Shown here: piece after piece, positions 11,532-29,016 of the stretch
How the letters are laid out: every line of letters begins with the position of its first letter
Numbering within the stretch: the stretch's first letter is position 1
NCBI RefSeq assembly: GCF_000427965.1
Contig: NZ_ATZA01000047.1
Span: forward strand, 1-46,580
DNA from: Olivibacter sitiensis DSM 17696
Lineage (GTDB): Bacteria; Bacteroidota; Bacteroidia; Sphingobacteriales; Sphingobacteriaceae
DNA length: 46,580 nucleotides
Direction: 5' to 3'
Made by a program: the position numbers and the translations under genes
Notes under the pieces: generated by a model
Told to the model about the DNA's origin: nothing
Seen by the model: only the letters and a program-made list of their open reading frames with translations
Database searches by the model: none

Positions 11532-14500
11532 ATGAGAAAGTATCAACTACTATTACAGCAATGTATTCGGTGTGTTTGCTGCTTGAGTATTTGCTTCTTG
11601 TCTGTTATAAAGTCCTTTGCTTACGAAGGTCACGATGGAAGCGAGTTGTTTAAGCAAATGACAATTACCGGAACGGTAAAAGACGCCGATGGCGCGCCCA
11701 TTCCAGGAGCATCCGTAAGCATTAAGGGGATGCCCACTAGGGGAACGGGTACCGACAAAGATGGGCAGTTTAAACTCGAAACCAGTGAACCCAATCCCGT
11801 TTTAGTCATAAGAAGTATTGGGTACGTGACGCAGGAAGTGGCAGTGGGCAGCCAATCACAGCTGAACATTGTCATGCAGTTTGACGAAGCCAAGCTAGAC
11901 GAGGTCATTGTAGTGGGCTATGGCCAGCAAAAGAAAGGGTCTATCACGGGGGCTATCTCCAATGTCACCAGTGATGATATCGAAATGGTGAAAGCACCTA
12001 CCGTGAGCGGGATGCTTGCTGGTAAGATTCCCGGACTGTCTTTTCGGATGCCGGACGGGCGTCCAGGTGCTGGTGCCAATATTTCTATTCGTAATATGGG
12101 GAATCCATTGTACGTCATAGATGGCATACAACAGGATGCGGGACAGTTCAATAATTTGTCGCCCAATGATATAGAGAGTATTACGGTGTTGAAGGACGCT
12201 TCGGCTGCAATTTATGGCGTGCGTGCTGCCAATGGTGTTATTTTGGTAACGACCAAGAGGGGGAAAGCCGGAAGTACCAATACCATCAATCTGGATACCT
12301 ATTATGGCTGGCAAAACTGGACTCGGTTTCCAAAAGGCGTGAATGCCTATGAATGGATGTTGGGAAGGGCAGATGCAGAAATGAATGCAGTGAATCCACA
12401 AACGGGTATTACACTGGAGGAAATCGAGCGTTGGCGACTAGGGGAGGAGCCGGGTTACCAAAGTTTTGATTGGTATGATTTTGTGGTATCGGGAAATGCC
12501 CCGCAAAGCTCGGTTAACTTGAACGCCACTGGTGGATCGGACAAAATCAACTACTATTTGTCACTTACACGGCTCGATCAGGATGCTGTTTTCGGCAATG
12601 GGGAGTTTACATTTAACCGTACCAATTTGCAAAGCAATGTCGATGCACAAATTGCAGAACGACTTAAAGTGGGAGTGCAAATCAATGGCCGCATTGAGAC
12701 CAGGGATCAGCCAGGTGTTCCGGAGGTAGATGACTATTGGCTGCCCCGTTTTGCTATTTTTAGAAACCGTCCCACGGAGAGGCCTTATGCCAATGATAAC
12801 CCTTTGTACCCCAATCATCTCAGTAATATTCAAACTAATTGGGCCATTATGAACAAGGATATATCTGGATACTGGCGTGAGGACTGGCGCGTATTGCAAA
12901 CCAACTTCAACGTAAATTACGATATACCCATCAAGGGCTTATCGGCAACCGCTCTATATTCCTACTACTTGGCCGATAGGGTGATGAATGGACATGAATA
13001 TACCTATCAAGTATATACTTATCGGCCATCTACCGATACCTATGATGCCACCGGTGGTAGCAGTAATCCATGGAGAGAACGCGGCACTAGAAAAGTATTT
13101 AACAACGTAGCCCAGGTTCATCTGAATTACAACAATACATTTGGTGATCGTCATACGGTGGGAGCTACTTTGGTGGCTGAGCGTATTAGCAGGCGCATTT
13201 TGGATACCTGGGTACATACCGTGCCTACAAACAATGTATTACCTATCTTGCAGTTTGCCGATATGGACACCTATAACGACTTGGATGACCAAGAAGCACG
13301 CTTGGGTTATGTGGGTCGCTTTAATTATAATTTCGGAGACAAGTACTACTTAGAGCTAGCTGGTCGATATGATGCATCTTGGAAGTTTGCACCTAATAAG
13401 AGGTGGGGCTTTTTCCCTTCTGTCTCTGGTGGATGGCGAATCACTGAGGAAGCTTTTCTGGCTAACAGGAACAAGCGGCTTTTGAATGATTTGAAAATTC
13501 GTGCTTCTTATGGATCAATGGGTGACGATGATGTAGGCATCGGGCCATTCGATTATATACCAGGTTATAGATATGGCTCCTCAACTGTCATCATTGATGG
13601 GCAAGTAGTTCGTGGCATTCGAGATCGCGGCGTGCCCATTGATAACATATCTTGGTTCACGACTACCACCCTGGACGTGGGAACGGACTTTTCTTTTCTA
13701 GAAGGAAAACTAAGCGGCTCGCTGGATTATTTTAGGAGGAAGAGAACGGGGTTGCGAGGTCCGAAATGGGACATCTTGGTTCCAGCAGAGCTTGGCTATA
13801 ACCTGCCCGATGAAAATGTGAATAGCGACTCACAGATTGGATTTGATGGCTCCTTGCTATATACGAACAGTATTGGAGAATTCACTTATCGCATAGGTGG
13901 CAATGCCATGTTTGGACGCACGAAGTTTTTGGAGTCCTATATGCCTCGGTGGGGCAATTCTTGGGAGCACTATCGCACTTCCGGCGAGGGTAGGTGGAGC
14001 AACATTTTTTGGGGATATCAAGTGATAGGACAATTCCAGTCGCAAGAGGAAATCAACAATTATCCAATCAACATTGATGGCGAAGGAAACCGTACGCTAT
14101 TGCCTGGGGATTTTATCTATATGGACGTCAATGGTGATGGAAAGATTGACGGCTATGATGAAAGGCCGATTGGATATCCCGCAGGGCAACTGCCCTTGCT
14201 CACATTTGGACTTAATCTTGGCGCAAGCTATAAGGGCTTTGATATCACGGCCGATTTTTCAGGAGGCGGAATGTATTCCTACGTTCAGAATTGGGAAATG
14301 AGATGGCCCTTCCAGAACACCGGTAATCTGCTCCAATATATGTATGAGGACCGTTGGCATCGCGAGGATCCTTATGACTTAAACAGCCCCTGGATTGCTG
14401 GTGAAAACCCGCCACTCCGCTTCAACCAAGGTGGGCACAGCAACTACAACAAAAATTCGGATTGGTGGTTGACCAATGTGCGGTACCTCAGATTGAGGAC

Positions 14501-14702
14501 TTTAGAGATAGGTTATTCCCTGCCAAAATCATTTATCAATAAGCTGGGGGCACAGCGAGCCAGATTTTTTGTCAATACCTATAACTTGTTTTCAATGGAT
14601 AATGTAAGTGGGTTTGGGGTAGATCCGGAAATCTATGATGGAAATGGCTTGCAATATCCTCAAAATAAGTTCATTAACATTGGTGCAAATATTTCATTTT
14701 GA
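11532..14702 (+). CDS. SusC-like TonB-dependent outer-membrane glycan transporter
   Basis: A 1056-residue protein with N-terminal signal (to about residue 30), a carboxypeptidase-regulatory-like beta domain (ITGTVKDADGAPIPGASVSIKG, 45-118), TonB-box-like LDEVIVVGYG (122-131), plug domain (IRNMGNPLYVIDGI, NDIESITVLKDASAAIYG) and a C-terminal beta-barrel ending in a hydrophobic strand (FINIGANISF). It imports oligosaccharides through the outer membrane with its SusD partner using TonB energy. There is no anti-sigma-interacting extension, consistent with control by the two-component system at the end of the locus. susD follows nine bases after the stop. Confidence 0.96.
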   Translation: MRKYQLLLQQCIRCVCCLSICFLSVIKSFAYEGHDGSELFKQMTITGTVKDADGAPIPGASVSIKGMPTRGTGTDKDGQFKLETSEPNPVLVIRSIGYVTQEVAVGSQSQLNIVMQFDEAKLDEVIVVGYGQQKKGSITGAISNVTSDDIEMVKAPTVSGMLAGKIPGLSFRMPDGRPGAGANISIRNMGNPLYVIDGIQQDAGQFNNLSPNDIESITVLKDASAAIYGVRAANGVILVTTKRGKAGSTNTINLDTYYGWQNWTRFPKGVNAYEWMLGRADAEMNAVNPQTGITLEEIERWRLGEEPGYQSFDWYDFVVSGNAPQSSVNLNATGGSDKINYYLSLTRLDQDAVFGNGEFTFNRTNLQSNVDAQIAERLKVGVQINGRIETRDQPGVPEVDDYWLPRFAIFRNRPTERPYANDNPLYPNHLSNIQTNWAIMNKDISGYWREDWRVLQTNFNVNYDIPIKGLSATALYSYYLADRVMNGHEYTYQVYTYRPSTDTYDATGGSSNPWRERGTRKVFNNVAQVHLNYNNTFGDRHTVGATLVAERISRRILDTWVHTVPTNNVLPILQFADMDTYNDLDDQEARLGYVGRFNYNFGDKYYLELAGRYDASWKFAPNKRWGFFPSVSGGWRITEEAFLANRNKRLLNDLKIRASYGSMGDDDVGIGPFDYIPGYRYGSSTVIIDGQVVRGIRDRGVPIDNISWFTTTTLDVGTDFSFLEGKLSGSLDYFRRKRTGLRGPKWDILVPAELGYNLPDENVNSDSQIGFDGSLLYTNSIGEFTYRIGGNAMFGRTKFLESYMPRWGNSWEHYRTSGEGRWSNIFWGYQVIGQFQSQEEINNYPINIDGEGNRTLLPGDFIYMDVNGDGKIDGYDERPIGYPAGQLPLLTFGLNLGASYKGFDITADFSGGGMYSYVQNWEMRWPFQNTGNLLQYMYEDRWHREDPYDLNSPWIAGENPPLRFNQGGHSNYNKNSDWWLTNVRYLRLRTLEIGYSLPKSFINKLGAQRARFFVNTYNLFSMDNVSGFGVDPEIYDGNGLQYPQNKFINIGANISF

Positions 14703-14710
14703 CGAGAATT

Positions 14711-16600
14711 ATGAAAAAGTATATCATAGCAATTATCGTAGCCTGCTCCTTTGCCTCATGCCAAAAAGACAGCGAATTTTTGACACGTGAGCCAACGGAC
14801 ATTTTGACCTACGAGCAGGTGTGGAGCGATGAGAAATTGGTACTGGCAGCTGTGGCAGATCTGTATGATCGCTTGCCCGACTATCAGCAACTAACCAATT
14901 GGTGGGAGTTTACAAATTTCGATGAAGCTTTTGCCTCCAATTTTGGCGATTATTGGCGGCATAAGAATCAGGAATGGGGATATGGCGACTGGGGATATTG
15001 GGATTATGGTTTTATCCGCGATATCAATCTATTCTTACAAGCTGCCGAGGAAACCGATCAAATGGAGGGCGATGCCACCGAAGTGGCATTGAAAGAGCGT
15101 TTTATAGCGGAAGTACGTTTTATACGTGCTTACACTTATTTTGAATTTGTGAAGCGTATGGGAGGTGTGCCGCTCATATTGGAACCCATGCAATATGACT
15201 ATAGTGGTGACCCCACTTATCTACAACATGCGCGGGCAAAAGAGCATGAGATATATGATTTTGTTATTGCGGAGCTAGAGGCTATAAAGGGACGGTTGCC
15301 AGACGAAGTGGCAACGAAATCGCGCGCCACCAAAGGAGCGGTATTGGCTACGCAAGCTCGAGCTGCTTTATATGCGGCATCCATTGCAAAGTACGGGGCA
15401 ACGACACCGCAAGTCAGCCTTCCTGGCGGTGAGGTGGGCATACCATCAGACATGGCATCCGGTTATTATCAAACGGCACTGGCTGCTGCCGAGGAGGTGA
15501 TTAATAGCGGTGTGTATAGTCTCTACATGCAACGTCCACAGAATTTGGAAGAAAATTTCAGCTATATCTTCTTGGATAAGAATGCCAATAACGAAGTTAT
15601 CTTTGTAAAAGATTATAAATTGCAAAGCGGTAAGGTACACGGTTTTACGGTGTCCAACCAACCTCGATCCTTATCTGAAGAGGCCCAGGGTGGCCGCATC
15701 AATCCATCGCTCAATTTAGTTCAATCTTTCGAACGGCTCGACAATACATATGCACCTTTGGCTATTCTCGATGCCAATGGTGAGCAAGTTCGCTACGACG
15801 CGCCTACAGACTTGTTCGCCGGACGTGATGCACGCCTCGGCGGGACGGTTATGGTACCGGGATCTACTTTCAAAGGTGGAAACCTTGATATCTGGGCCGG
15901 TTATCAGCTGGCTAATGGCAATATCATTACCTCTGATGTGCCTGGTGGACGAGGAAGGTTGCCAGGTGTGCAAAATGATGTCCAAGTGGTGGGCTACGAC
16001 GGGCCCATAGATGGTTTTGAATGGATAGCGCAAACAGGTTTTTACTTGAGAAAGTATGTTGACCCAACTCCTGGTGCTGGTCAAATAGGAACTAATAGTG
16101 AAGTATGGTGGATTCGCTATCGCTATAGCGAAGTGTTGTTAAATGCGGCAGAAGCAGCGTTCGAGCTGGGAGATGCGCAAAAAGCTGTAGGGTATATGAA
16201 TCAAGTGAGAAGAAGAGCAGGATTCCAGACAGATCTGAATGCCACCGATATCACCTTTGACCGCATTGTGCATGAGCGGAAAGTAGAGTTTGCATTTGAA
16301 GGTCATCAGCTCTGGGATATGAAGCGCTGGCGCCTGGCACACCTAGTTTGGAATGGCACCAATCACCCATTGACGACCAATATCGGGAATGCTGACGAGC
16401 CCAGTACCCGTCCATTCGGCTTATGGCCCTATCAAATCTATGATCCAAACGGCTCCGATGACGGTAAATGGGTGTTCAGGCAGATATTGCCCAGAGAGGT
16501 GACAAATCCAGATCGTTTTAGGTTAGGCAACTACTATTCCTTCATTAGTGATGATATCCGAAATCGTAACCCTAAAATTGTAAGAAACCCGAATCAATAA
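14711..16600 (+). CDS. SusD-like surface glycan-binding lipoprotein
   Basis: The frame is open from a TTG overlapping the susC stop, but ATG 14711 gives MKKYIIAIIVACSFASC with a lipobox Cys at residue 17, so it is preferred. The 629-residue protein has the RagB/SusD architecture: an N-terminal TPR-like helical domain (EVRFIRAYTYFEFVKRMGGVPLI) and the C-terminal SusD domain (RYSEVLLNAAEAAFELGDA, VHERKVEFAFEGHQLWDMKRW). It captures the glycan at the cell surface and caps the SusC transporter. Operonic with susC. Confidence 0.96.
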   Translation: MKKYIIAIIVACSFASCQKDSEFLTREPTDILTYEQVWSDEKLVLAAVADLYDRLPDYQQLTNWWEFTNFDEAFASNFGDYWRHKNQEWGYGDWGYWDYGFIRDINLFLQAAEETDQMEGDATEVALKERFIAEVRFIRAYTYFEFVKRMGGVPLILEPMQYDYSGDPTYLQHARAKEHEIYDFVIAELEAIKGRLPDEVATKSRATKGAVLATQARAALYAASIAKYGATTPQVSLPGGEVGIPSDMASGYYQTALAAAEEVINSGVYSLYMQRPQNLEENFSYIFLDKNANNEVIFVKDYKLQSGKVHGFTVSNQPRSLSEEAQGGRINPSLNLVQSFERLDNTYAPLAILDANGEQVRYDAPTDLFAGRDARLGGTVMVPGSTFKGGNLDIWAGYQLANGNIITSDVPGGRGRLPGVQNDVQVVGYDGPIDGFEWIAQTGFYLRKYVDPTPGAGQIGTNSEVWWIRYRYSEVLLNAAEAAFELGDAQKAVGYMNQVRRRAGFQTDLNATDITFDRIVHERKVEFAFEGHQLWDMKRWRLAHLVWNGTNHPLTTNIGNADEPSTRPFGLWPYQIYDPNGSDDGKWVFRQILPREVTNPDRFRLGNYYSFISDDIRNRNPKIVRNPNQ

Positions 16601-16606
16601 AAAGCT

Positions 16607-17317
16607 ATGAACAAGCTACTAGAAAAAATACACAAAAAATCTTGGGGCTATATAGCCGGAATTTTGTGGTGCTCGACGCTCCTGTCGAGTTGCGGAAAAG
16701 ACAATTATGAAGCGCCAACTGCTCAACTCAAAGGACGCATTGTATATCAAGGAGAGGCAATTCCAGTTAGTTATAATGATGTCGTATTCGAACTTTTTGA
16801 ACCTGGTTGGCAATTGCAAAATCCAATCACTGTCACGGTCGATCAAGATGGTAGCTATGCTGCCATGCTGTTCAACGCAAGTTACAAGGCTTTTTTTCAA
16901 CCCAATCAAGGGCCCTTCATCGCTCCGGCAGATTCCCTTGCCATAGAGGTAAATGGCAATACGGAGTTTGATATTGAAGTGCTGCCTTATTTCATGTTGC
17001 GCAATCCTAGCTTTACCGCGAATGACCGTAATGTACAAGCGACCTTTCAGGTGGAAAAAATTATAAACGATGAACGGGCAAGGAATATAGAACATATTAC
17101 ACTTTATGTTGGAAAAACCTTGTTTACAGACGGGCGAACGGCGGTAGCTTCTTCTAGAATGGACGGTGGAACGGTAGATATATCGCAAACAATAAACTTA
17201 AATGTGGATGTACCTTTCCTCACTCCAACGCAAAATTATATCTTCGCTAGAGTGGGGCTAAAAATAGTAGGGGTAGAAGATATGGTATTCACCCCAGTCC
17301 AGCGACTCGAATTATAA
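16607..17317 (+). CDS. DUF3823 lipoprotein of the PUL
   Basis: A 236-residue lipoprotein (lipobox LLSSC, Cys29) with the two beta-sandwich modules of DUF3823: LKGRIVYQGEAIPV with ITVTVDQDGSYAAMLFNASYKAF, then FTANDRNVQATFQVEKI with ITLYVGKTLF. DUF3823 proteins typically follow susD and are thought to be surface glycan-binding or structural partners (SusE/F-like position); binding here is inferred. It begins six bases after the susD stop, so it is co-transcribed and probably translationally coupled. Confidence 0.85.
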   Translation: MNKLLEKIHKKSWGYIAGILWCSTLLSSCGKDNYEAPTAQLKGRIVYQGEAIPVSYNDVVFELFEPGWQLQNPITVTVDQDGSYAAMLFNASYKAFFQPNQGPFIAPADSLAIEVNGNTEFDIEVLPYFMLRNPSFTANDRNVQATFQVEKIINDERARNIEHITLYVGKTLFTDGRTAVASSRMDGGTVDISQTINLNVDVPFLTPTQNYIFARVGLKIVGVEDMVFTPVQRLEL

Positions 17318-17327
17318 ACGTATATTG

Positions 17328-19379
17328 ATGATGAAAACTTCTTTCCTGTTTTGCTTTGTTAGTGTGCTATCCCTTTCGGTTGCTTGCCAAAACAGTACAT
17401 CTGTGGAGGTTGTGGGGCGAACGGATACGTCCAAGGTAAATCCATATTATGTTCAAAATAAGGCACCCCTTAAGTCAGCCTATTTTTTGAAACTCCCGGT
17501 TGGCAGCATACAAGCCAAAGGATGGCTTCGCAAGTACCTGGAGCTGCAACGAGATGGGCTTACCGGGCACCTTGGCGAAATCAGTGCGTGGCTGGCCAAA
17601 GAAAACAATGCGTGGCTCAGCAAGGACGGAAGCGGCGATCACGGTTGGGAGGAGGTACCCTACTGGCTGAAAGGTTACGGAAACCTGGGCTATATCCTGC
17701 AGGACTCCTCCATTATCAAAAACGCAAAAACATGGCTAGATGCTGCCTTGAATAGTCAGCGGGACGATGGCTATTTTGGTCCTCTGATCTTGAAAAATGG
17801 TAAGCCCGATCTCTGGGGAAATATGATCATGCTTTGGTGCCTACAATCTTATTTTGAGCACAGCCAAGATGAAAGGGTACTGCCATTTATGGAAAAATAT
17901 TTTAGGTGGCAGGCCCAACTGCCCGATAGCCTGTTTCTGAAAGATTACTGGGAAAATAGTCGCGGTGGCGACAATCTGTACAGCATCTATTGGCTCTACA
18001 ACCGCACGGAAGGAAACGACTGGCTACTGGAGCTGGCCGAAAAAACGCATCGTAATACAGCCGACTGGCGCCAACAAGACAACTTACCCAATTGGCATAA
18101 CGTAAATATTGCACAATGTTTCCGCGAGCCTGCAACTTATTACTTACAAAGTGGGGATAAGGACGACCTGCAAGCAACTTATCGCAATTTTGAGTTCATC
18201 CGCGAAAAATATGGACAGGTGCCAGGTGGTATGTTTGGTGCCGATGAAAATGCCAGAGAGGGGTTTACGGATCCTAGGCAGGGAGTGGAAACCTGCGGTA
18301 TGGTAGAGCAAATGGCTTCGGATGAACTGTTAATGGCTTTTACAGGCGACCCCTTCTGGGCCGACCATGCCGAAGAAATAGCTTTCAATACTTATCCCGC
18401 AGCGGTGATGCCCGACTTTAAAGCACTACGTTATATCACCAGTCCGAATATGACTATCAGCGATAGCAAAAACCATCATCCAGGGATTGATAACAATGGC
18501 CCCTTCCTAATGATGAATCCATTCAGCTCCCGTTGCTGTCAGCACAATCACGCCCAGGGATGGCCTTATTATGCCGAACATTTGTTTATGGCTACGCCCG
18601 ATCAAGGGCTTGCCGCTTTGCTGTATGCAGAAGCCGATGTGGAAGCGCTGGTAGGCGAGGAAGGACAAGCTGTGCAGATATCGGCCAGGGGACATTACCC
18701 CTTCGATGAGCGAATGAGCTATACGATCCAAACGGCATCAGAGGTGAATTTCCCTTACTATATGCGCATTCCGCTGTGGTGTGAACAAGCCGAGATATCG
18801 GTGAATGGGGAGCAATTGAAAGGCGATTTTAAAGGAGGGACTTATGCCAAGATCACGCGTGACTGGAAAGATGGCGATGAAATAAGCATTTACCTTCCGA
18901 TGAAGCTGCATACCAAAAAATGGGTGGAAAACAAAAATAGCTTGAGCGTGCAACGAGGCCCGCTGACCTACTCGCTGAAAATAGAAGAGGAATACCGCAA
19001 GGCCGACAGTAAAAAATCGGCTATCGGTGATTCCAAATGGCAAAAGGATGCCGACCCGGAAAAATGGCCTTCTTTTGAGATTTTCCCCGCTTCTGCCTGG
19101 AATTATGCCTTGGTGGAACCAAACGGGAAGCTGGAAGATACGTTTGAGGTAATAAAGAAAACTTGGCCCGCCGATGACTTCCCTTTTACGCTTGGCCAAG
19201 TGCCCATTGAAATAAAGGCCAAGGCCAAGCGGGTGGAAAATTGGAATATAGACCAGTATGGCCTGACGGCCGTTTTGCCAGAAAGCCCATTGAACCTGGA
19301 TGAAAAAGAGGAAATAGTGACGCTGATTCCCATGGGAGCAGCACGCTTAAGAATTTCGGCTTTTCCGACAACAAAATAG
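17328..19379 (+). CDS. GH127-family (DUF1680) beta-L-arabinofuranosidase-like lipoprotein
   Basis: Starts at ATG 17328 or the adjacent ATG 17331; the frame also has a TTG just before. About 683 residues with a lipoprotein signal (SLSVAC). The (alpha/alpha)6-barrel family signature is present: ETCGMVEQMASDELL (Glu and Cys near 321 and 323) and RCCQHN (Cys pair near 403-404), matching the Glu-Cys and Cys-Cys positions that hold zinc and the cysteine nucleophile in the characterised Bifidobacterium GH127 enzyme. A candidate acid/base Glu is in FGADEN. GH127 members release beta-L-arabinofuranose, but some cleave other sugars of pectin, so exact specificity is inferred. Located 10 bases after the DUF3823 gene. 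Confidence 0.88.
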   Translation: MMKTSFLFCFVSVLSLSVACQNSTSVEVVGRTDTSKVNPYYVQNKAPLKSAYFLKLPVGSIQAKGWLRKYLELQRDGLTGHLGEISAWLAKENNAWLSKDGSGDHGWEEVPYWLKGYGNLGYILQDSSIIKNAKTWLDAALNSQRDDGYFGPLILKNGKPDLWGNMIMLWCLQSYFEHSQDERVLPFMEKYFRWQAQLPDSLFLKDYWENSRGGDNLYSIYWLYNRTEGNDWLLELAEKTHRNTADWRQQDNLPNWHNVNIAQCFREPATYYLQSGDKDDLQATYRNFEFIREKYGQVPGGMFGADENAREGFTDPRQGVETCGMVEQMASDELLMAFTGDPFWADHAEEIAFNTYPAAVMPDFKALRYITSPNMTISDSKNHHPGIDNNGPFLMMNPFSSRCCQHNHAQGWPYYAEHLFMATPDQGLAALLYAEADVEALVGEEGQAVQISARGHYPFDERMSYTIQTASEVNFPYYMRIPLWCEQAEISVNGEQLKGDFKGGTYAKITRDWKDGDEISIYLPMKLHTKKWVENKNSLSVQRGPLTYSLKIEEEYRKADSKKSAIGDSKWQKDADPEKWPSFEIFPASAWNYALVEPNGKLEDTFEVIKKTWPADDFPFTLGQVPIEIKAKAKRVENWNIDQYGLTAVLPESPLNLDEKEEIVTLIPMGAARLRISAFPTTK

Positions 19380-19460
19380 CTGTTTGTAAATAAAACAATT
19401 TCGACAAGCTATGATATGAGAGGTGAAGTAAATCAAAATTAAACAAATAGATATAAGAAT

Positions 19461-21959
19461 ATGCGCAGACACTCCTTTATTGCTTATTTATTAGTTGGTG
19501 CGGGCCTGCTTTCCGCTTGTGGTAACGGTAAAACTACCGGCACCAAAAGCGGTGATAGAGAAACAAGCCTCCGTGCACCCGCCTATCCATTGATCACTCA
19601 CGATCCTTATTTCAGTATCTGGTCATTTGGCGATACCTTAAACACCCAATCTACCAAGCATTGGACCGGAACAGATCAGGCGATTACTGCCTTGTTGCGG
19701 GTGGACGAGGAACTCTACCAAATTGCCGGAAAAGCGATCACCCAGATGGAAGAATGGGTGCCCACTGCACAGAAGGAAAGTTATCAGGTTCGCTATTCCT
19801 ATACCAAACCAGCAGCGGGATGGGAGAAGCCAGACTATTCCGATCAATCTTGGAAAATGGGAACGGCTCCCTTTGGTGACAATTCGGTTGATAACCCCAT
19901 CAAGCCGGCTTCTTTGTACGACAAAGAAATCTGGTACCGTAGGGAATTTGACTGGAACGATAAGCAAGCAGAAGATCTAAAGCTGTTAATCAGCCACGAC
20001 GATGCGGTGGAGGTTTTTATCAATGGGGTGCCCGTGTATCGGGATGAGAACTTTATTCTCGACTATGCTTTTGTTCCACTGCCTGCAGCAGGCAAGGATG
20101 CGTTGCGAGAAGGAAAGAACGTGCTGGCCGTGCATTGCCGCAACGACCGAGGAGGTGCATTCATAGACGTGGGGCTGGTGAACGAGCGAAAGCTTTTTGA
20201 CACGAAGTTGGCCGAACAGAAGTCCGTGAAACTGACTGCTACGCAAACAGCATACGAGTTTGCCGCAGGGCCAATAAAGGCAGGGATGATATTCACCTCG
20301 CCATTGTTGATGGATGACCTGGAGGTACTGGCAAGACCAGCTTCCTATATAAGTTTTAAAGCATCGTCTACAGATGGCGCCGAGCATGACGTGCAGGTGT
20401 TCTTTGCCGTATCTGCTACCGTAAGTACGGACAAGCCGGGCCAACAAGTGAAGACCGAGCTACAATCAGTAAACGGACAGCTAGTTCAGTCGGTCGGCAC
20501 CCTGTCGCAAAATATCCTTGGAAAAAAAGGCGACAACGTGCGTATTGATTGGGGCAAAGCCTATTTGGCGGCGGCACAAAAACCTACCGTAAAAGCCTTG
20601 CCGACAACGGTGGCCGCTTTGGCGGGCCTCCTGGGGAAGCAGGCATCGGATGCCGCCGTAGCTTCCGAAGGCCCCGCATCCGATAAACTGATCGGGCTGG
20701 AAATTGAGCTCGGAAAAGTTAAAGGAGAAGTGCAGGAACACGTCACATTGGCCTACGATGATGAATATAGCGTACAGTATTTTGGGGAGAACCTCCGTCC
20801 TTGGTGGCGACGGAATGGTACTTCGAACGCCCTCACCATGATCGAAGCGGCACAAAGCGATTATGATCGCTTGATGAAAGCATGTGCTGACTTCGATGAA
20901 CAATTATTTGAAGAAGCGGAAAAGGCGGGAGGTGTTAAATATGCGGAGTTATGCAATCTCGCGTACCGCCAGGCTATAGCCGCCCACAAGGTGGTGGCAA
21001 ACAAGAATGGCGAGCTATTTTTCTTCTCGAAGGAGAACTTTTCGAATGGTTCCATAGGCACGGTAGATGTGACCTATCCTTCCATGCCCTTGTTTTTACA
21101 TTATAATACCGAGCTGGCTAAAGGGCTGCTCCGCTTTATTTTTGATTATTCAGAGAGCGGTCGCTGGCAGAAACCTTTTCCTGCGCACGACGTTGGCACT
21201 TATCCTCTCGCTAATGGGCAGACATATGGCGAAGACATGCCTGTGGAAGAGGCAGGCAATATGCTCACCTTGACAGCTGCGCTCGCTGTTCGCGAAGGGA
21301 ATGCAGAATTTGCCGAGCAGCATTGGCAGACCTTAACCACTTGGACAAACTACCTGAAAGCGGAGGGAATGGACCCAGCAAATCAATTGTGTACGGATGA
21401 CTTTGCCGGTCACCTCGCGCGGAATGCCAATCTTTCCGTGAAAGCCATTATGGGTATTGCTTCTTATGCCAAGCTTGCAGAGCTGCTGAAAAAGGATGAG
21501 CTAGCGAAGGAGCACTTTCAGTTAGCTAGGGATATGGCCAAGAAATGGATGGAATTGGCCGATGATGGCGACCATTATGCATTGGCTTTTGGACAAAAAG
21601 ATACCTGGAGTCAAAAATACAACCTCATTTGGGACAAATTGCTCAAGCTCGATATTTTTCCGAAAGAGGTGGTAAAAAAGGAAATAGCCTATTATAAAAC
21701 CAAACAGGAAACATATGGACTGCCATTAGATAGCCGAAAGACCTATACGAAATCGGATTGGATTCTTTGGACCGCTACTTTAGCAGAAGACAAGGATTTC
21801 AATACGTTCGTAGATCCAGTTTGGAAATACGTCAATGAAACCAGCGACCGTATTCCCCTAAGCGATTGGCATGAAACAACTGACGGCAAATCCGTTGGTT
21901 TCCGGGCCCGTTCCGTAGTGGGAGGGTATTTTGTGAAAGTATTGGAGAAGGGAATGTGA
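19461..21959 (+). CDS. Glutaminase A-like PUL lipoprotein (DUF4964/DUF5127/DUF4965/DUF1793 type)
   Basis: An 832-residue lipoprotein (lipobox LLSAC, Cys20). N-terminal LRAPAYPLITHDPYFSIWS is typical of DUF4964. An inserted galactose-binding-like beta domain follows (WEKPDYSDQSWKMGTAPFG through FINGVPVYRDEN), then the DUF5127-like sandwich and a C-terminal (alpha/alpha)6-type region (LAYRQAIAAHKVVANKNGELFFFSKENFSNGSIGTVDVTYPS, split here as LAYRQAIAAHK and FFSKENFSNGS). The family is named after a fungal glutaminase, but its Bacteroidota members sit in PULs, so a role in glycan or glycoprotein breakdown is likely and glutaminase activity unproven. An 81-base gap separates it from the GH127 gene. 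Confidence 0.8.
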   Translation: MRRHSFIAYLLVGAGLLSACGNGKTTGTKSGDRETSLRAPAYPLITHDPYFSIWSFGDTLNTQSTKHWTGTDQAITALLRVDEELYQIAGKAITQMEEWVPTAQKESYQVRYSYTKPAAGWEKPDYSDQSWKMGTAPFGDNSVDNPIKPASLYDKEIWYRREFDWNDKQAEDLKLLISHDDAVEVFINGVPVYRDENFILDYAFVPLPAAGKDALREGKNVLAVHCRNDRGGAFIDVGLVNERKLFDTKLAEQKSVKLTATQTAYEFAAGPIKAGMIFTSPLLMDDLEVLARPASYISFKASSTDGAEHDVQVFFAVSATVSTDKPGQQVKTELQSVNGQLVQSVGTLSQNILGKKGDNVRIDWGKAYLAAAQKPTVKALPTTVAALAGLLGKQASDAAVASEGPASDKLIGLEIELGKVKGEVQEHVTLAYDDEYSVQYFGENLRPWWRRNGTSNALTMIEAAQSDYDRLMKACADFDEQLFEEAEKAGGVKYAELCNLAYRQAIAAHKVVANKNGELFFFSKENFSNGSIGTVDVTYPSMPLFLHYNTELAKGLLRFIFDYSESGRWQKPFPAHDVGTYPLANGQTYGEDMPVEEAGNMLTLTAALAVREGNAEFAEQHWQTLTTWTNYLKAEGMDPANQLCTDDFAGHLARNANLSVKAIMGIASYAKLAELLKKDELAKEHFQLARDMAKKWMELADDGDHYALAFGQKDTWSQKYNLIWDKLLKLDIFPKEVVKKEIAYYKTKQETYGLPLDSRKTYTKSDWILWTATLAEDKDFNTFVDPVWKYVNETSDRIPLSDWHETTDGKSVGFRARSVVGGYFVKVLEKGM

Positions 21960-22074
21960 ATTGGTGTTTGAGATTGAGACGAATCAACGAATGATTGAAA
22001 CAGATCGCTTTGACGGAAAGTCGGGCTTTTTGTTTCTTTGAGAGTCAGATAAGCACATGTTATAAAAATAAGTT

Positions 22075-23928
22075 ATGAAAAATAGATTTCGAAGATCCCT
22101 CAGTGCCTTGGCACTAGTTCTTACCGTAAGCGCAGTGGAAGGCCAGACCGCAAATTGGAAGCCTGTAGGAGATAAGATTAAAACACCTTGGGCCGAGCTG
22201 GTCAATCCAGGACAACCTTTGCCGGAATACCCACGCCCACATTTGCAGAGAGGCAACTGGCAGAACCTGAATGGTCTTTGGGATTATGCCATCACGCCGA
22301 TAGGGCAAGAAAGTATTCCAAGCCAGTTTCAAGGTGCGATTCTCGTGCCTTTTGCCGCCGAGTCATCGCTATCGGGAGTAGGCAAAGAGGTAGGGAAGGA
22401 ACAGGCACTTTGGTACCATAAGCAAGTCGATATCAATAAGCAGCTGACCAAAGAACAAGTGCTCCTGCATTTTGGAGCTGTCGATTGGCGCAGTGAGCTG
22501 TATGTAAACGGTCAGAAAGTAGGGCAGCATGAGGGAGGTTTCGATCCTTTCTACTTTGATATTACCCCGTTCTTGAAAAAAGGCAGCAAACAGGATATTG
22601 CTCTCCGTGTTTGGGATCCTACTGATGATGGCCCACAGCCCAGGGGCAAGCAGGTGAATAGACCCGAGGGCATCTGGTATACACCCGTTACGGGCATCTG
22701 GCAAACCGTTTGGTTGGAAGGCGTGCCCAAAACGTATATTAGCGCTACCAAGCAGACCCCTTCGGTAGACGAAAGTTCATTGCATTTTGAAGCCGAGGTG
22801 GCCAATGCACAAGCTGGCGATGAAGTTAAAGTGGAAGCGCTGGAAGGCACCACTTCGGTGGCGTCAGCCTCTTTCGCAGTGGGTGAACAGGCCAGCTTGT
22901 CTATTCCCAATGCCAAGTTATGGTCTTCAAATGCTCCTTTCCTCTATGACCTGAAAGTATCTTTGGTACGCAAAGGCAAAGTAATAGACGAAGTGAAGAG
23001 TTATTTTGCCATGCGGAAAATTTCCATGGCAAAGGATGCAAAAGGCATACAGCGCATGTTGCTGAACGATGAGTTTGTTTTTCAATACGGCCCGCTCGAT
23101 CAGGGTTGGTGGCCGGATGGGCTCTATACGGCTCCCACGGACGAAGCTTTATTGTTTGATGTCGTCAAGACTAAAGAAATGGGCTTTAACATGATCCGCA
23201 AGCACATCAAGGTGGAACCGGCACGCTGGTACCGCCATTGCGATAGCGTGGGCGTCTTGGTGTGGCAGGATATGCCCAGCGGCGACCTCGGCGGCAATCG
23301 TTGGGATAATCATCCAGGACAGATCTCTGGCTTCAACTTAGATAAAGAACGAAGTTCGGAATCTGAAGCGTACCATAAGAAGGAATGGAAAGCTATTATG
23401 GATGCATTGCACAATTTTCCGAGCATCGTGGTATGGGTGCCATTTAATGAAGCTTGGGGACAGTTCAAGACCAAGGAGATTACAGAGTGGACCATGGCCT
23501 ACGATACTTCTCGCTTGGTGAATAGTGCCAGTGGCGGAAATTTCCTGAAAGCTGGTCATATTCTCGACATTCACAACTATCCCGACCCCAGCATGCCCGA
23601 TCCTGAATTATTTGGCGATGAGCAGGTATTGGTGCTAGGCGAGTTTGGGGGGCTGGGTTTGCCTGTAGAAGGGCATACTTGGCAGGAAAAGAACAATTGG
23701 GGCTATCAGAGCTTCAAGAATAAAGAGGAACTGTTAAAGCGCTATACTCGCCTCATGGAAGACTTACAGCGTTTGATTCCTCTTGGCCTGTCGGCGGGGG
23801 TTTACACGCAGACAACGGACGTGGAAGTGGAGACGAATGGCATGTTTACCTATGATAGGAAAGAAATTAAAATACCAGAGGCCACTCTCAAAGCACTTCA
23901 CGATAAACTCTATCAGTTCAAACCCTAA
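22075..23928 (+). CDS. Glycoside hydrolase family 2 protein
   Basis: A 617-residue secreted enzyme (Sec signal to about VEGQ, residue 24). Domains in order: GH2 sugar-binding jelly roll ([20 protein letters not shown] to [14 protein letters not shown]), immunoglobulin-like domain (about 220-320), and TIM barrel. The candidate acid/base is E459 in [10 protein letters not shown] and the nucleophile E523 in [12 protein letters not shown]2 covers beta-galactosidases, beta-glucuronidases, beta-mannosidases and arabinopyranosidases; specificity cannot be fixed by reading. It is compact, lacking the C-terminal domains of large beta-galactosidases. A 115-base gap precedes it and the GH43 gene follows after six bases. 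Confidence 0.92.
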
Positions 23929-23934
23929 GGAAAG

Positions 23935-25035
23935 ATGGTTGTGAGCATAAGAATTTGCGCTTTACCTTTTTTATTTTTCATCTTGCAGGGTATCCTATTT
24001 GGTTCTTGTTCCACGAAATCAAAAAAGTATCTTGGAAGAGAAGATAGCACCTTGCGACAGGCCGTATACGTCAACCCGGTTTACGAACCGGTGTTGGCGG
24101 ATCCCACTGTTGTCCGGGATCCCGGGACGGGAGATTTCTTTGCCTTTGGTACGGCAGATGATTTTGGCGATGGAAAGGGACAGCGGATGATACCCGTGCT
24201 ACGATCGGCAGACCTTGTCCATTGGCAGTATCTTAAAGACGCGCTAACGAAGAAACCCACGTGGAAATCAAAGGGCGGTATCTGGGCTCCGGATGTCAAT
24301 TTCGTAAATGGGAAATTTTATCTTTACTATGCATACTCCACCTGGGGCGATCCAGACCCAGGCATTGGCCTAGCAATTGCAGACTCGCTCACGGGCGATT
24401 TCGCCGATCAGGGAAAGGTATTCCTCAGCTCGGAAGTGGATGTGCCCAATTCCATCGATCCCTGTTATTTTGAAGAGGATGACAAGAAATACCTTTTTTG
24501 GGGAAGCTTTAGCGACTTGCCTACGCAGGGAACTTATGCTGTTGAGCTGACAGCCGATGGCCGGAAAGTAAAAAGTTTGACCGATAAAACAAAGATTGCT
24601 GCAGGTGATTGGGAGGCGGTGATGATCCATAAAAAGGGAGACTATTATTATTTTTTTGGTTCGAAAGGAAGTTGCTGCGAAGGTCACGATAGCCAATACC
24701 ATGTGCTCGTAGCACGGGCTAAAACGTTGTTGGGGCCTTATCTTGACCAAGAGGGTAGGGATATTGCCGAACGAGGAAATGGAACAGTTTTGTTGAAGGG
24801 CAATGGCTATTTTGTGGGGGTGGGGCACAATGCCCAGATTATAACGGATGACGCCGGAGCGGATTGGATATTGTATCATGGATTTGACACTCGTCACGAT
24901 GGCCAATTGCCACATGGAACAAACAGAAGGGCTTTACTTCTTGATAGGCTGGAGTGGAAGGATGCTTGGCCAACAGTAATGGGACAAGGTGCTTCTAGCA
25001 CGGAGCAGCCTGCACCTACTATAAGGCAAAAGTAA
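23935..25035 (+). CDS. Glycoside hydrolase family 43 lipoprotein
   Basis: A 366-residue five-bladed beta-propeller enzyme with lipobox LFGSC (Cys25). The three GH43 acidic residues are visible: D56 (VLADPTVV, base), D175 (PNSIDPCYF, pKa modulator) and E227 (GDWEAVMI, acid). The WAPD motif (117-120) also fits. GH43 enzymes are mostly alpha-L-arabinofuranosidases, endo-arabinanases or beta-xylosidases; with a neighbouring GH127 an arabinose-containing substrate is likely. It begins six bases after the GH2 gene, and the regulator gene follows after 51 bases with its own promoter. Confidence 0.92.
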   Translation: MVVSIRICALPFLFFILQGILFGSCSTKSKKYLGREDSTLRQAVYVNPVYEPVLADPTVVRDPGTGDFFAFGTADDFGDGKGQRMIPVLRSADLVHWQYLKDALTKKPTWKSKGGIWAPDVNFVNGKFYLYYAYSTWGDPDPGIGLAIADSLTGDFADQGKVFLSSEVDVPNSIDPCYFEEDDKKYLFWGSFSDLPTQGTYAVELTADGRKVKSLTDKTKIAAGDWEAVMIHKKGDYYYFFGSKGSCCEGHDSQYHVLVARAKTLLGPYLDQEGRDIAERGNGTVLLKGNGYFVGVGHNAQIITDDAGADWILYHGFDTRHDGQLPHGTNRRALLLDRLEWKDAWPTVMGQGASSTEQPAPTIRQK

Positions 25036-25086: not shown

Positions 25087-28000
25087 ATGATAAAAAAAGC
25101 ATTTTGTTTATTGGTGCTTTGGCTGGCTTGGGCCGAGATGATTGCCCAGCCCCATTACTTCAAACATTATCAGGTAGAGCAGGGGCTTTCTAATAACGCC
25201 GTCATTTGCATTATCCAGGATAGCAAGGGGTTTATGTGGTTTGGTACCAGGGATGGTCTCAATCGTTTCGATGGTTATACATTTAAGAGCTTTAGGCATG
25301 ATACATATGATAATAATAGCCTAGGCAATAATTTTGTACATAGTTTATACGAGGATCGAGATGGGATGATTTGGACGGGGACCGATCAAGGAATCTATGT
25401 ATATGACCCAAGGAACGATCGTTTTAGCCATTTTCCCTATCAGCAGAACAAAGAAGTGCTATTGATAGTCGGCGATGACAAGGATAATATCTGGTTTCTG
25501 GGCGATTTCGATCTATACTGTTTCAATAGGAAGTCAAAATCTTTGCAGGAATTTGGAGAACTAGGGTTTCATGGCCTTAGGGGCATTCTCGTACACAACG
25601 ATGTGGTTTGGGGCGGTAGTGTAGATGGCAAGCTTATCAAATATGATAGTGGAACGAATAAAAAGAAGGTTTTCGATCTTTTTGATCATTCAGCACCGGC
25701 CATCTCCAAATCTGTCACAACTATGGCAATAGATAGCAACGGAAGCAGGCTTTTAATAGGTACATCTTCCCAAGGATTGAAAGCATTTCATATAATGAAA
25801 GAAACCTATCGGGATGTACTAACGAGCACATCTACCGGGGAGCCCTTGTTTGTTCGCGATATAAAACAAATAGGGAAAGACTATTGGTTGGCTTCTGAAG
25901 CAGGGGTGTTTGTCCTATCGGATATTGAAACATCGGCTTACCAACGCTTACAGCAACAACATGGTAATCCTTGGGCTATATCGGACAATGCCGTGTACGC
26001 AATATGGGAAGATGTCGAGTCGGGAATTTGGATAGGAACTTGGTTTGGAGGCATCAATTACTATCATCCTCAGCATGATTTTTTCGAGAAGTTTTTCCCA
26101 ATTGCCGGCAAGCCAAGTATCTCGGGCAATGCCGTGCGTGAGATAACAAGTGACCGCAATGGCACGCTATGGATAGGAACGGAAAATGGAGGCCTAAACC
26201 GCTTTAATCCTCAAGATAACTCCTTTAAATCCTATTTACCTACAAATGATAAACAGGCTATAGGTAGCTACAATCTCCACGGATTGACCGTTTTGGGCGA
26301 TACCCTGCTAATAGGTACCTTTGAGCAGGGGTTGGAAATGTTTAATATTTCTACCGAAAAGGTGTTCAGGAAATTCTATGCCAAGGGTGGAGACAATGGA
26401 CTTCATAGCAATTTTGTTTATACCACACTTCGCCGAAAAAATGGTGAGGTGTTATTGGCAACTAATTTTGGTGTTTATATGTTTCGCCCAGAAACTGGTA
26501 GCTTTGAAGTGGTGAAAGCTATTCCCCACCATATTTTTTACACTTGCCTATTTGAAGATACTAAGGGATACATATGGGCCGGCACTTGGCGTGATGGTTT
26601 GTATTACTATCATCCTAAAACTGGCGAAAAAGGTTTTTTTGCTGCGAAAAACGATGGAAAGGGCTTGCCCAGCAACCGGGTTACCTATATTCAGGAAGAT
26701 CGTCAGCAAACTGTTTGGGTAGGTACAGAAGAAGGTCTTTGCTGTTATGACGCTACCGAGCGGGTCTTTCGACAAATTAACTTCAAGTCATTGGGCAAAA
26801 GCTTATTGGTTTGCGCCATCCTGGAAGATGACTATGGGAAACTGTGGGTTAGCACATCCAATGGCTTGATACAATTTGATCCCCAAAATGGAAACAGCAG
26901 GTTGTTCACTACTGCTCATGGTTTGTTGAGCAATCAGTTTAACTACAATGCGGCTTATAAATCAACAGATGGAACGCTCTACTTTGGAACGGTAAAGGGC
27001 TTAGTGCGATTTCATCCTAAGAAAATGCCTTTGAAGCAAGTTTCTGCTCCAATCTACATTACCGGAATGCAGGTTTACAATCGAGAATTGGCCATCGGTC
27101 CCGGCAAATACGACTTAAAGAAATCAATTTCTTACACCGATTCCTTGGTACTTCCCTATAATCGATCTACTATTAGCATTGATTTCTCTACACTAAGTTA
27201 TATATCGCCGGAAAGGAACGAATATGCCTATAAACTGGAGGGGCTCGATCAAAAATGGACACACATCACTGCAAACAGAAAAGCATATTTTACTGAACTT
27301 CCTGCTGGGAAATATCAATTTCGAGTGGCCGCTGTAAATAGTGCTGGAAAGCGCTTAGGTCCAGAGAAGACCTTGTTTCTTCAAATATTGCCGGCTCCAT
27401 GGGCCAGTCCTATGGCTCGTGTTTTTTACTTTGTCTTGGGGGTGTGCTTGCTGACTTTTTTTGTCCGCAATTACCATCGTCGCCAAAAGGAGAAACACGA
27501 GATAAGGCTGGAACAGTTGGCGCATCGCAAAGAGGAGGAAATGTACCATGCTAAAATTGCTTTTTTTACACAGGTAGCCCACGAGATAAGAACTCCTCTG
27601 ACGCTTATTAAGGCGCCTATGGAAAAGGTGTTGAAGAAAGTAGATGAAGTGCCCAGTATCAAAAAAAATCTACTGATCATGCAACGGAATACCGAAAGGT
27701 TGCTGCAACTTGCGGGGCAGTTGTTGGATTTTAGAAAGACCGAGATCAAGGGGCTTCAGTTGAATTACCAACAAGTGCAGCTCATTCCTTTTTTAAAGCA
27801 AGTACTGGGGGGCATAAGGCCCACCTTAACTGAAGCAAAACTGAGGCTATCATACCATCTGCCGAAAGAAGAAATAGTTGTCTGTGTGGATTTAGATGCG
27901 CTTGATAAGATGGTGAGCAATTTGATGAGCAATGCCATTAAATATGCCAAGTCAGAAGTGGTGCTTTCCCTGGAACAATCGACAAATTGCTTTTTGCTTC

Positions 28001-28227
28001 GGGTGAGTAACGATGGGGAGCTGATACCAGAAGAAATGAGCGAAAAGATCTTCGAGCCATTTTTTCGTACGCCAGCGGCCTACGGTACTATGGGCGCAGG
28101 GTTGGGACTGGCACTCGCCAAGTCATTGGCCAATATGCACGGCGGAAAGCTTTATCTAGAAACTGAAAATAGGAAAGAATTCAACACATTTGTATTAGTT
28201 TTGCCAATAACCAATATAAAGGCTTGA
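25087..28227 (+). CDS. PUL sensor histidine kinase (HTCS sensor half: beta-propeller, Y_Y_Y, HisKA, HATPase)
   Basis: A 1046-residue membrane sensor. After a Sec signal (to about IAQ, residue 21) come two periplasmic beta-propeller domains built of repeats such as GFMWFGTRDGLNRFDG and GTLWIGTENGGLNRFNP, a Y_Y_Y domain (about 690-770; ISIDFSTLSYISPERNEYAYKLEG), one transmembrane helix (about 776-794), then cytoplasmic HisKA with H832 in HEIRTPLTLIKAP and HATPase_c with MVSNLMSNAIKYA, IFEPFF and GAGLGLALAKSL. This is the HTCS architecture except that receiver and AraC domains, normally fused, are in the next ORF. That ORF is in the same frame, past one TGA and one sense codon. It would sense an oligosaccharide from the PUL glycan and control susC. 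See findings. Confidence 0.93.
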   Translation: MIKKAFCLLVLWLAWAEMIAQPHYFKHYQVEQGLSNNAVICIIQDSKGFMWFGTRDGLNRFDGYTFKSFRHDTYDNNSLGNNFVHSLYEDRDGMIWTGTDQGIYVYDPRNDRFSHFPYQQNKEVLLIVGDDKDNIWFLGDFDLYCFNRKSKSLQEFGELGFHGLRGILVHNDVVWGGSVDGKLIKYDSGTNKKKVFDLFDHSAPAISKSVTTMAIDSNGSRLLIGTSSQGLKAFHIMKETYRDVLTSTSTGEPLFVRDIKQIGKDYWLASEAGVFVLSDIETSAYQRLQQQHGNPWAISDNAVYAIWEDVESGIWIGTWFGGINYYHPQHDFFEKFFPIAGKPSISGNAVREITSDRNGTLWIGTENGGLNRFNPQDNSFKSYLPTNDKQAIGSYNLHGLTVLGDTLLIGTFEQGLEMFNISTEKVFRKFYAKGGDNGLHSNFVYTTLRRKNGEVLLATNFGVYMFRPETGSFEVVKAIPHHIFYTCLFEDTKGYIWAGTWRDGLYYYHPKTGEKGFFAAKNDGKGLPSNRVTYIQEDRQQTVWVGTEEGLCCYDATERVFRQINFKSLGKSLLVCAILEDDYGKLWVSTSNGLIQFDPQNGNSRLFTTAHGLLSNQFNYNAAYKSTDGTLYFGTVKGLVRFHPKKMPLKQVSAPIYITGMQVYNRELAIGPGKYDLKKSISYTDSLVLPYNRSTISIDFSTLSYISPERNEYAYKLEGLDQKWTHITANRKAYFTELPAGKYQFRVAAVNSAGKRLGPEKTLFLQILPAPWASPMARVFYFVLGVCLLTFFVRNYHRRQKEKHEIRLEQLAHRKEEEMYHAKIAFFTQVAHEIRTPLTLIKAPMEKVLKKVDEVPSIKKNLLIMQRNTERLLQLAGQLLDFRKTEIKGLQLNYQQVQLIPFLKQVLGGIRPTLTEAKLRLSYHLPKEEIVVCVDLDALDKMVSNLMSNAIKYAKSEVVLSLEQSTNCFLLRVSNDGELIPEEMSEKIFEPFFRTPAAYGTMGAGLGLALAKSLANMHGGKLYLETENRKEFNTFVLVLPITNIKA

Positions 28228-28230
28228 AAA

Positions 28231-29016
28231 GTGATAGCAGTCAATACACCGATGGCAGCAAAACCTAGGGTTTTGCTTGTTGATGACAATGATGATATCT
28301 TATCTTTCCTAAAAGATGACCTGGAAGAACACTATGAGATCTTTACCGCGTATGATGGTAAAGAAGCACTTTCTGTCATGGCCGAAAATTGCATCCATTT
28401 GGTCGTTAGCGATATTATGATGCCTGTTATGGATGGCTACGCGCTCTGTCAACAGCTTAAAGCAGATATGGAATATTGCCATATCCCGTTGATATTGTTG
28501 ACGGCAAAGGACACGCTACAGTCTAAGATTCAGGGCTTGGAGTTTGGAGCGGATGCCTATGTGGAAAAGCCTTTTTCTCCTGAGTTTTTGCAGGTGCAGA
28601 TTGCCAATCTGCTGGCCAGTCGACAAAAGATACGTCAATATTTCGCTTCGTCTCCTTTACTCTATCTTAATTCAGAAATACGTGATAAGACTGACGAAGC
28701 CTTTCTCGTCAAGCTCGAACACACCATCCAGCAACATCTTCAGGAAGAGCGCCTAGATGTGGAGCAGTTGGCGGGTTTTATGTGTATGAGCCGACCCACG
28801 CTTTACCGTAAGATAAAGGCATTGTCAGATCTGACACCAAATGAGCTTATTAACCTTGTGCGATTGAAAAAGGCAGCGGAGCTCTTGGCGAGCGGCCGTT
28901 ATAAAATCTATGAAGTAGCTACTTGGGTGGGATATAGCTCGCAAACCCAGTTTGGGCGTAATTTTCATAAATATTTTGGTATGTCTCCCAGTGAATATAG
29001 GTTAAGTTTGACCTAA
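28231..29016 (+). CDS. Response regulator with AraC-type HTH (HTCS regulator half)
   Basis: A 261-residue protein if started at GTG 28231; ATG 28252 (254 residues) is an alternative that keeps the whole receiver. Receiver domain: acidic pair in LLVDDND (18-19), phospho-acceptor D61 in VVSDIMMPVMDGY, T91 in LLTAKD, and K113 in VEKPFSP. AraC-family HTH from about 160: LDVEQLAGFMCMSRPTLYRK and the second helix-turn-helix in VATWVGYSSQTQFGRNFHKYFG. It should activate the PUL after phosphotransfer from the upstream kinase. It is in the same reading frame as the kinase, separated by TGA AAA. The combined length of about 1309 residues is that of a normal HTCS protein. Confidence 0.9.
   Translation: MIAVNTPMAAKPRVLLVDDNDDILSFLKDDLEEHYEIFTAYDGKEALSVMAENCIHLVVSDIMMPVMDGYALCQQLKADMEYCHIPLILLTAKDTLQSKIQGLEFGADAYVEKPFSPEFLQVQIANLLASRQKIRQYFASSPLLYLNSEIRDKTDEAFLVKLEHTIQQHLQEERLDVEQLAGFMCMSRPTLYRKIKALSDLTPNELINLVRLKKAAELLASGRYKIYEVATWVGYSSQTQFGRNFHKYFGMSPSEYRLSLT

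Follow-up and report, generated by a model that had tools for sequence, protein, structure and literature searches.

A two-gene signalling pair in Olivibacter sitiensis, very probably descended from a fused HTCS by an old gene fission

Main finding

The sensor kinase and the receiver-AraC regulator encoded side by side in the window (the whole stretch of 46,580 nucleotides from Olivibacter sitiensis DSM 17696 that was analysed) are best explained as a two-gene, orthodox two-component system, descended from a fused hybrid two-component system (HTCS) for plant-sugar use that was split in an ancestor within the family. We give this reading a probability of about 0.93. A recent mutation or an error is very unlikely to account for the stop codon between kinase and regulator. 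The pair is conserved and old, an ordinary kinase-regulator system of two genes whose gene-splitting history is of mild interest. Three options had been offered by the initial annotation for this junction: a nonsense mutation with rescue, TGA readthrough, and a stable natural split. Only the last one is favoured by the comparisons below, on account of four out of four same-genus orthologues being split with varied stops, frames and overlaps, of a short linker, and of reordered or separated pairs.

The junction between kinase and regulator

The features of the pair, with the evidence for each, are the following:

25087..28227, + strand: sensor histidine kinase, 1046 aa, with Reg_prop propeller, Y_Y_Y, one hydrophobic stretch, HisKA and HATPase_c (ORF, Pfam; hydrophobic stretch judged by eye from the translation)
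27196..27387, + strand: Y_Y_Y domain, residues 704-767 (Pfam)
27553..27738, + strand: HisKA domain with the phospho-acceptor His, AHEIRTPL (Pfam; His in 72/72 aligned rows)
27889..28209, + strand: HATPase_c domain (Pfam)
28225..28227, + strand: stop TGA of the kinase gene (ORF list, sequence, junction comparison)
28231..29016, + strand: separate response regulator of 261 aa, with GTG 28231 as the likelier start (ORF, Pfam, junction comparison)
28252..28254, + strand: alternative ATG, 3 residues ahead of 'KP', a less likely start (junction comparison)
28270..28596, + strand: receiver domain (Response_reg) with the CHIP motif (Pfam, alignment)
28768..29001, + strand: DNA-binding domain of the AraC type (HTH_18), carrying the D and K of S/CHIP-DK (Pfam, alignment)

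By the ORF list and the translation, the HTCS-type sensor kinase ORF (25087-28227) ends in TGA (28225-28227), followed by a single AAA codon (28228-28230) and by the GTG (28231-28233) that opens the receiver-AraC ORF (28231-29016) in the same frame. Coordinates and translation therefore bear out the description of two same-frame ORFs with just TGA and AAA between them, and positions 25087-29016 amount to 1310 codons, counting the inner TGA and the final stop.

A second possible regulator start, ATG 28252-28254, lies downstream of the GTG. Counted to the conserved 'KP', the GTG leaves 10 residues, which fits the 10-12 of the same-genus orthologues (L174 and L175, 10; L172, 11; L173, 10-12), while the ATG leaves 3, so that GTG 28231 is the likelier start and the ATG was set aside. 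Since this GTG is placed three bases past the kinase stop, translation of the regulator is probably coupled to that of the kinase.

The Pfam search assigned Reg_prop, Y_Y_Y, HisKA and HATPase_c to the first ORF, and Response_reg and HTH_18/HTH_AraC to the second, confirming the proposed HTCS order of propeller, Y_Y_Y, HisKA, HATPase, receiver and AraC HTH. Both the phospho-His and the phospho-Asp are kept in all 72 aligned rows. The S/CHIP-DK motif, linked by Gao et al. 2024 (PMC11253607) to an inhibited state of the DNA-binding domain, is complete in the regulator of the window (CHIP, D and K). Across the alignment, strict S/CHIP is found in 35/43 split and 22/29 fused rows, the D in 35/43 split and 25/29 fused rows, and the K in 72/72. 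Its presence in most split rows therefore suggests that the motif was largely retained after the loss of the tether.

Orthologues within the genus

Five genomes of the genus were compared, including that of the window. The regulator orthologue is split from the kinase in all four of the others (69-72% identity to the window for the regulator, 51-53% for the adjoining kinase). Their junctions differ: L172 has TAA, in frame, with an ATG at +12; L173 has TAA, in frame, with ATG at +9/+12/+15; L174 has TAA, out of frame, with an ATG at -7; and L175 has TGA, out of frame, with an ATGA overlap. Three of the five junctions are thus in frame, counting the window. Because stop, frame and overlap vary from one junction to the next, what is conserved in the genus is the split, and not the TGA or the frame.

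These orthologues bear on two of the alternatives. A recent nonsense mutation in this strain, breaking a fused HTCS whose regulator is rescued by re-initiation, would agree with ORFs that share one frame and are parted by TGA and AAA alone. However, the alignment with orthologues, which had been suggested as a check of this option, went against it: none of the four is fused at this locus, and they carry other stops and frames. On the other hand, a sequencing or assembly error at the TGA is conceivable in a draft assembly (5,053,571 bases in 110 contigs), although the genome of Olivibacter sitiensis AW-6T was reported with a stated coverage of 120x (PMC4149018), and the four same-genus kinases also end within a few codons of this position. 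An error here has a negligible probability.

A sample of 161 loci

A wider sample of 161 loci was made up of 80 regions picked from regulator matches, 80 genome_contigs loci and the window. It comprises 58 split and 93 fused loci and 10 without a kinase match in reach, figures that do not form an unbiased census, as several genomes contributed two or more loci and two genomes occur in both sets (as shown by the identical regulators L194/L056 and L240/L059). The 80 genome_contigs loci include 72 fused, 5 split and 3 without kinase, and all 5 split ones are titled Pedobacter. The mostly fused state of relatives elsewhere in Bacteroidota (these 72 of 80) also speaks for the nonsense mutation.

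The frames 0, 1 and 2 are taken by 7, 16 and 35 of the 58 split junctions, with the window among the 7. As this in-frame share is lower than the third expected by chance, the in-frame placement of the window junction is not special. The kinase stops at these junctions are TAA (32), TGA (17) and TAG (9), and at 55 of the 58 junctions the nearest ATG is no more than 30 nt away from that stop.

The same data bear on recoding of the TGA, by which some full-length fused HTCS would be made. In its favour, open frame flanks the TGA on either side, and in-frame junctions occur in 7/58 split loci and in 3/5 within the genus. However, kinase and regulator are in different frames at 51 of the 58 split junctions and in two of the four same-genus orthologues, and the two in-frame orthologues have TAA. 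A stop and an in-frame downstream ORF that are both conserved, as expected for readthrough, were not found among the 58 junctions, with 7 in frame and the stop varying. The readthrough product would also have a linker shorter than in all 49 fused relatives measured, and reordered pairs exist. Although a minor read-through product may be formed, readthrough as the explanation of the junction is very improbable.

The linker between HATPase and receiver

Read across the TGA, the linker of the window has 20 codons, stop included. In 49 fused relatives it has 31-36 codons, so the linker of the window is at least 11 codons shorter. A point nonsense mutation would keep a linker of fused length, and the short linker consequently counts against it. 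Considering also that the split clade of the window covers five genus codes, a recent nonsense mutation is extremely improbable, and an old fission remains the preferred reading.

A loose 'HQxxEF' pattern in the linker is present in 38 of the 49 closer fused loci, in none of the 64 fused loci below 50% regulator identity, and in the kinase tails of 30 of the 58 split loci. Because the pattern is common to the closer fused loci and to split kinase tails, it supports a fission inside a homologous linker. By the pattern used, the kinase tail of the window lacks this remnant, like those of 28 of the 58 split loci.

Trees and history of the split

In the near-full-length tree (72 rows), the window clusters with the same-genus rows in a five-row, all-split set (100, starred) and lies inside a 17-row, all-split set (100, starred) from five genus codes, and the more distant relatives are fused. 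Rooting by the outgroup, together with the homology of the linker, suggests that a fused ancestor underwent fission.

How many fission or fusion changes are needed depends on the data set, with values from 1 to 4. The regulator tree (RR, 102 rows) needs three state changes, the C-terminal HK plus RR tree (96 rows) two, the HK-only tree four, and the near-full-length tree (72 rows) one, with a support of only 6 for that branch. A quick tree of 43 rows needs three changes, at least two of them forced by starred branches, and groups a six-row split clade with a fused clade bearing a Met at the junction (95, starred). AU tests on this 43-row tree rejected neither of two constraints: all split rows in a single clade (p 0.864), and the main split rows grouped with the fused clade, leaving the six-row clade outside (p 0.865). 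Both constrained trees scored better than the free one. When the separated pairs are included, the fused rows need two changes (HK plus RR) or one (RR alone). A single fission would thus suffice in the best near-full-length tree, at that support of 6, and the other trees would need two to four changes.

Reordered and separated pairs

Among the 10 loci that have no kinase in reach, five are regulators whose genomes share the genus code g16. The pairing of a separated kinase and regulator was inferred from strand, proximity and open frame. In G197, the regulator comes first and the kinase second, with 24 bases between both ORFs; two opposite-strand genes stand between regulator and kinase in G308 and G227, and three in G233; and in G353 about 20 kb separate the regulator from the closest candidate kinase that has no regulator fused to it. 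In a sixth case, G079, the best candidate kinase of this kind is on a different contig. Only weak kinase matches were obtained for L196 and L055, and the regulator match of L071 and L107 is at the end of the stretch. The pairs of G197, G308, G227 and G233 nest inside the 17-row split set of the window in the tree (100, starred). At L292, L293, L295 and L296, kinase and regulator are reordered (regulator first) or parted by opposite-strand genes.

The upstream gene run

The kinase and regulator close a run of genes, all on the same strand, identified by domain search:

11532..14702, + strand: TonB-dependent receptor of the SusC type, opening the run (Plug, CarbopepD_reg_2)
14699..16600, + strand: SusD-like protein
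16607..17317, + strand: DUF3823 protein
17325..19379, + strand: GH127-type beta-L-arabinofuranosidase
19461..21959, + strand: GtaA/DUF5127/DUF4964 protein, present in L274 too (87% over 330 aa, truncated where that stretch ends)
22075..23928, + strand: GH2 enzyme (76% in four same-genus loci)
23935..25035, + strand: GH43 enzyme, separated by 51 bases from the kinase that follows (67-70% in four same-genus loci)

The ORFs of SusC and SusD share 4 bases. This set of SusC-like, SusD-like, DUF3823, GH127, GtaA-like, GH2 and GH43 genes suggests an arabinose-containing glycan; the region 11532-25035 looks like an arabinan-type PUL, probably controlled by the kinase-regulator pair. The GH2 and GH43 orthologues also precede the kinases of the four same-genus loci, with one or two extra GH43-like genes on the other strand between them and the kinase. 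SusC/SusD/DUF3823 genes like those of the window (38-60% identity) adjoin the split loci L281 and L283 as well as the fused loci L284 and L285. Loci of this kind therefore seem to be served by either form, split or fused.

Proposed mechanism

The linker between HATPase and receiver is proposed to have been broken in an ancestor within the family, which would have left the kinase with a short tail, and the receiver-AraC portion would have acquired its own start codon. The junction would since have drifted in stop codon, frame and overlap, down to the TGA-AAA-GTG state of the window.

In the present-day system, the periplasmic propeller/Y_Y_Y sensor is predicted to bind an oligosaccharide of the arabinose-containing glycan. 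The kinase dimer would then autophosphorylate and hand the phosphate to the free regulator; as kinase and regulator are two genes, this transfer is expected to be intermolecular rather than intramolecular. Phosphorylation would relieve the inhibition between receiver and DNA-binding domain, and the freed regulator would activate its putative target, the adjacent SusC/SusD/GH127/GH2/GH43 locus.

Relation to known systems

With the HTCS of Bacteroides polysaccharide utilization loci, the pair shares the set and order of domains (Reg_prop/Y_Y_Y/HisKA/HATPase_c/Response_reg/HTH_18), the type of sensor, the AraC-type output, the S/CHIP-DK motif (PMC11253607) and a PUL-like neighbourhood with SusC, SusD and GH genes. 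However, an HTCS holds all these domains in one polypeptide, whereas the window has two genes, with a TGA and a separate start between them, as do the four same-genus loci. Like orthodox histidine kinase-response regulator pairs, it consists of separate, abutting genes on the same strand, kinase first, both of which have a start codon and keep their active-site residues. Unlike them, it very probably derives from a fused HTCS, and it retains the HTCS-type sensor and the autoinhibition motif.

Cock and Whitworth reportedly treated the fusion and fission of genes for two-component systems in 2007. The event proposed here is of the same kind, but in this case the fission of an HTCS was kept across several genus codes, and the genes were later separated or reordered in some of them. 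In literature searches for split HTCS or for this domain set, no report of a split HTCS was found at the level of titles and abstract openings. Overlaps are described as common among two-component genes, with 22.6% of cis intervals below 0 bp (PMC3018481), and a two-component fusion through a stop-codon mutation has been reported in Xanthomonas (PMC8175716).

A clade without the tether, next to fused relatives at the same kind of PUL genes, offers a natural experiment. HTCS tethering and its bearing on kinase-regulator specificity are said to have been addressed by Townsend et al. in 2013. The tether is thought to relax this specificity (PMC11253607), which raises the questions of whether specificity re-evolves once the tether is lost, and why free regulators still retain an autoinhibition motif proposed to answer the tether problem.

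A fused clade with a junction methionine

In a clade of fused loci (L205-L209, L211, L213, L217, L241, L242 and L251-L271), a Met stands right ahead of 'KP' and the receiver in 29 of 31 members, of which 11 were initial and 20 were added to test the pattern while their linkers were still unseen, these 20 having been picked as fused and similar, and some being near-copies of one another. The other two carry Val (GTG) and Thr in the alignment. With a simpler anchor, the Met is found in 28/31 loci of the clade and in 0/82 other fused loci. Its position coincides with the start site of the split L184, and most other split regulators begin further upstream.

This Met may be a re-fusion scar or an internal start: either the clade re-fused, or the Met would predate the fission and later become a start. 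Since the 31-row alignment has 20 other Met columns, 10 of which are conserved in 30 or 31 of the 31 rows, the junction Met alone does not prove internal initiation. A broader scenario, which we consider doubtful, is a family that toggles between split and fused states, with one fission, re-fusion of the Met-bearing clade and a relic start still in use, so that one gene would yield a membrane HTCS and a free regulator. If so, the in-frame junction of the window would be a present-day state one stop codon away from fusion.

Paralogues

The genome of the window holds 30 regulator matches at E 1e-8 or better, 7 of which span receiver and HTH. Of the 7, two have short frames, namely the regulator of the window and C56:118640; the other five belong to long frames (953-1394 aa) in which a kinase match is also present. 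The C56 paralogue (G000:C56:115560-119380, L232) is a second split, HTCS-derived pair in this genome, with a TAG stop and out of frame, sharing 40% (kinase) and 55% (regulator) identity with the window. Finally, three regulator matches carry one internal stop codon, namely L025 (G023:C110:12066), G037:C29:24897 and G037:C61:38634, and are possibly broken or further split paralogues.
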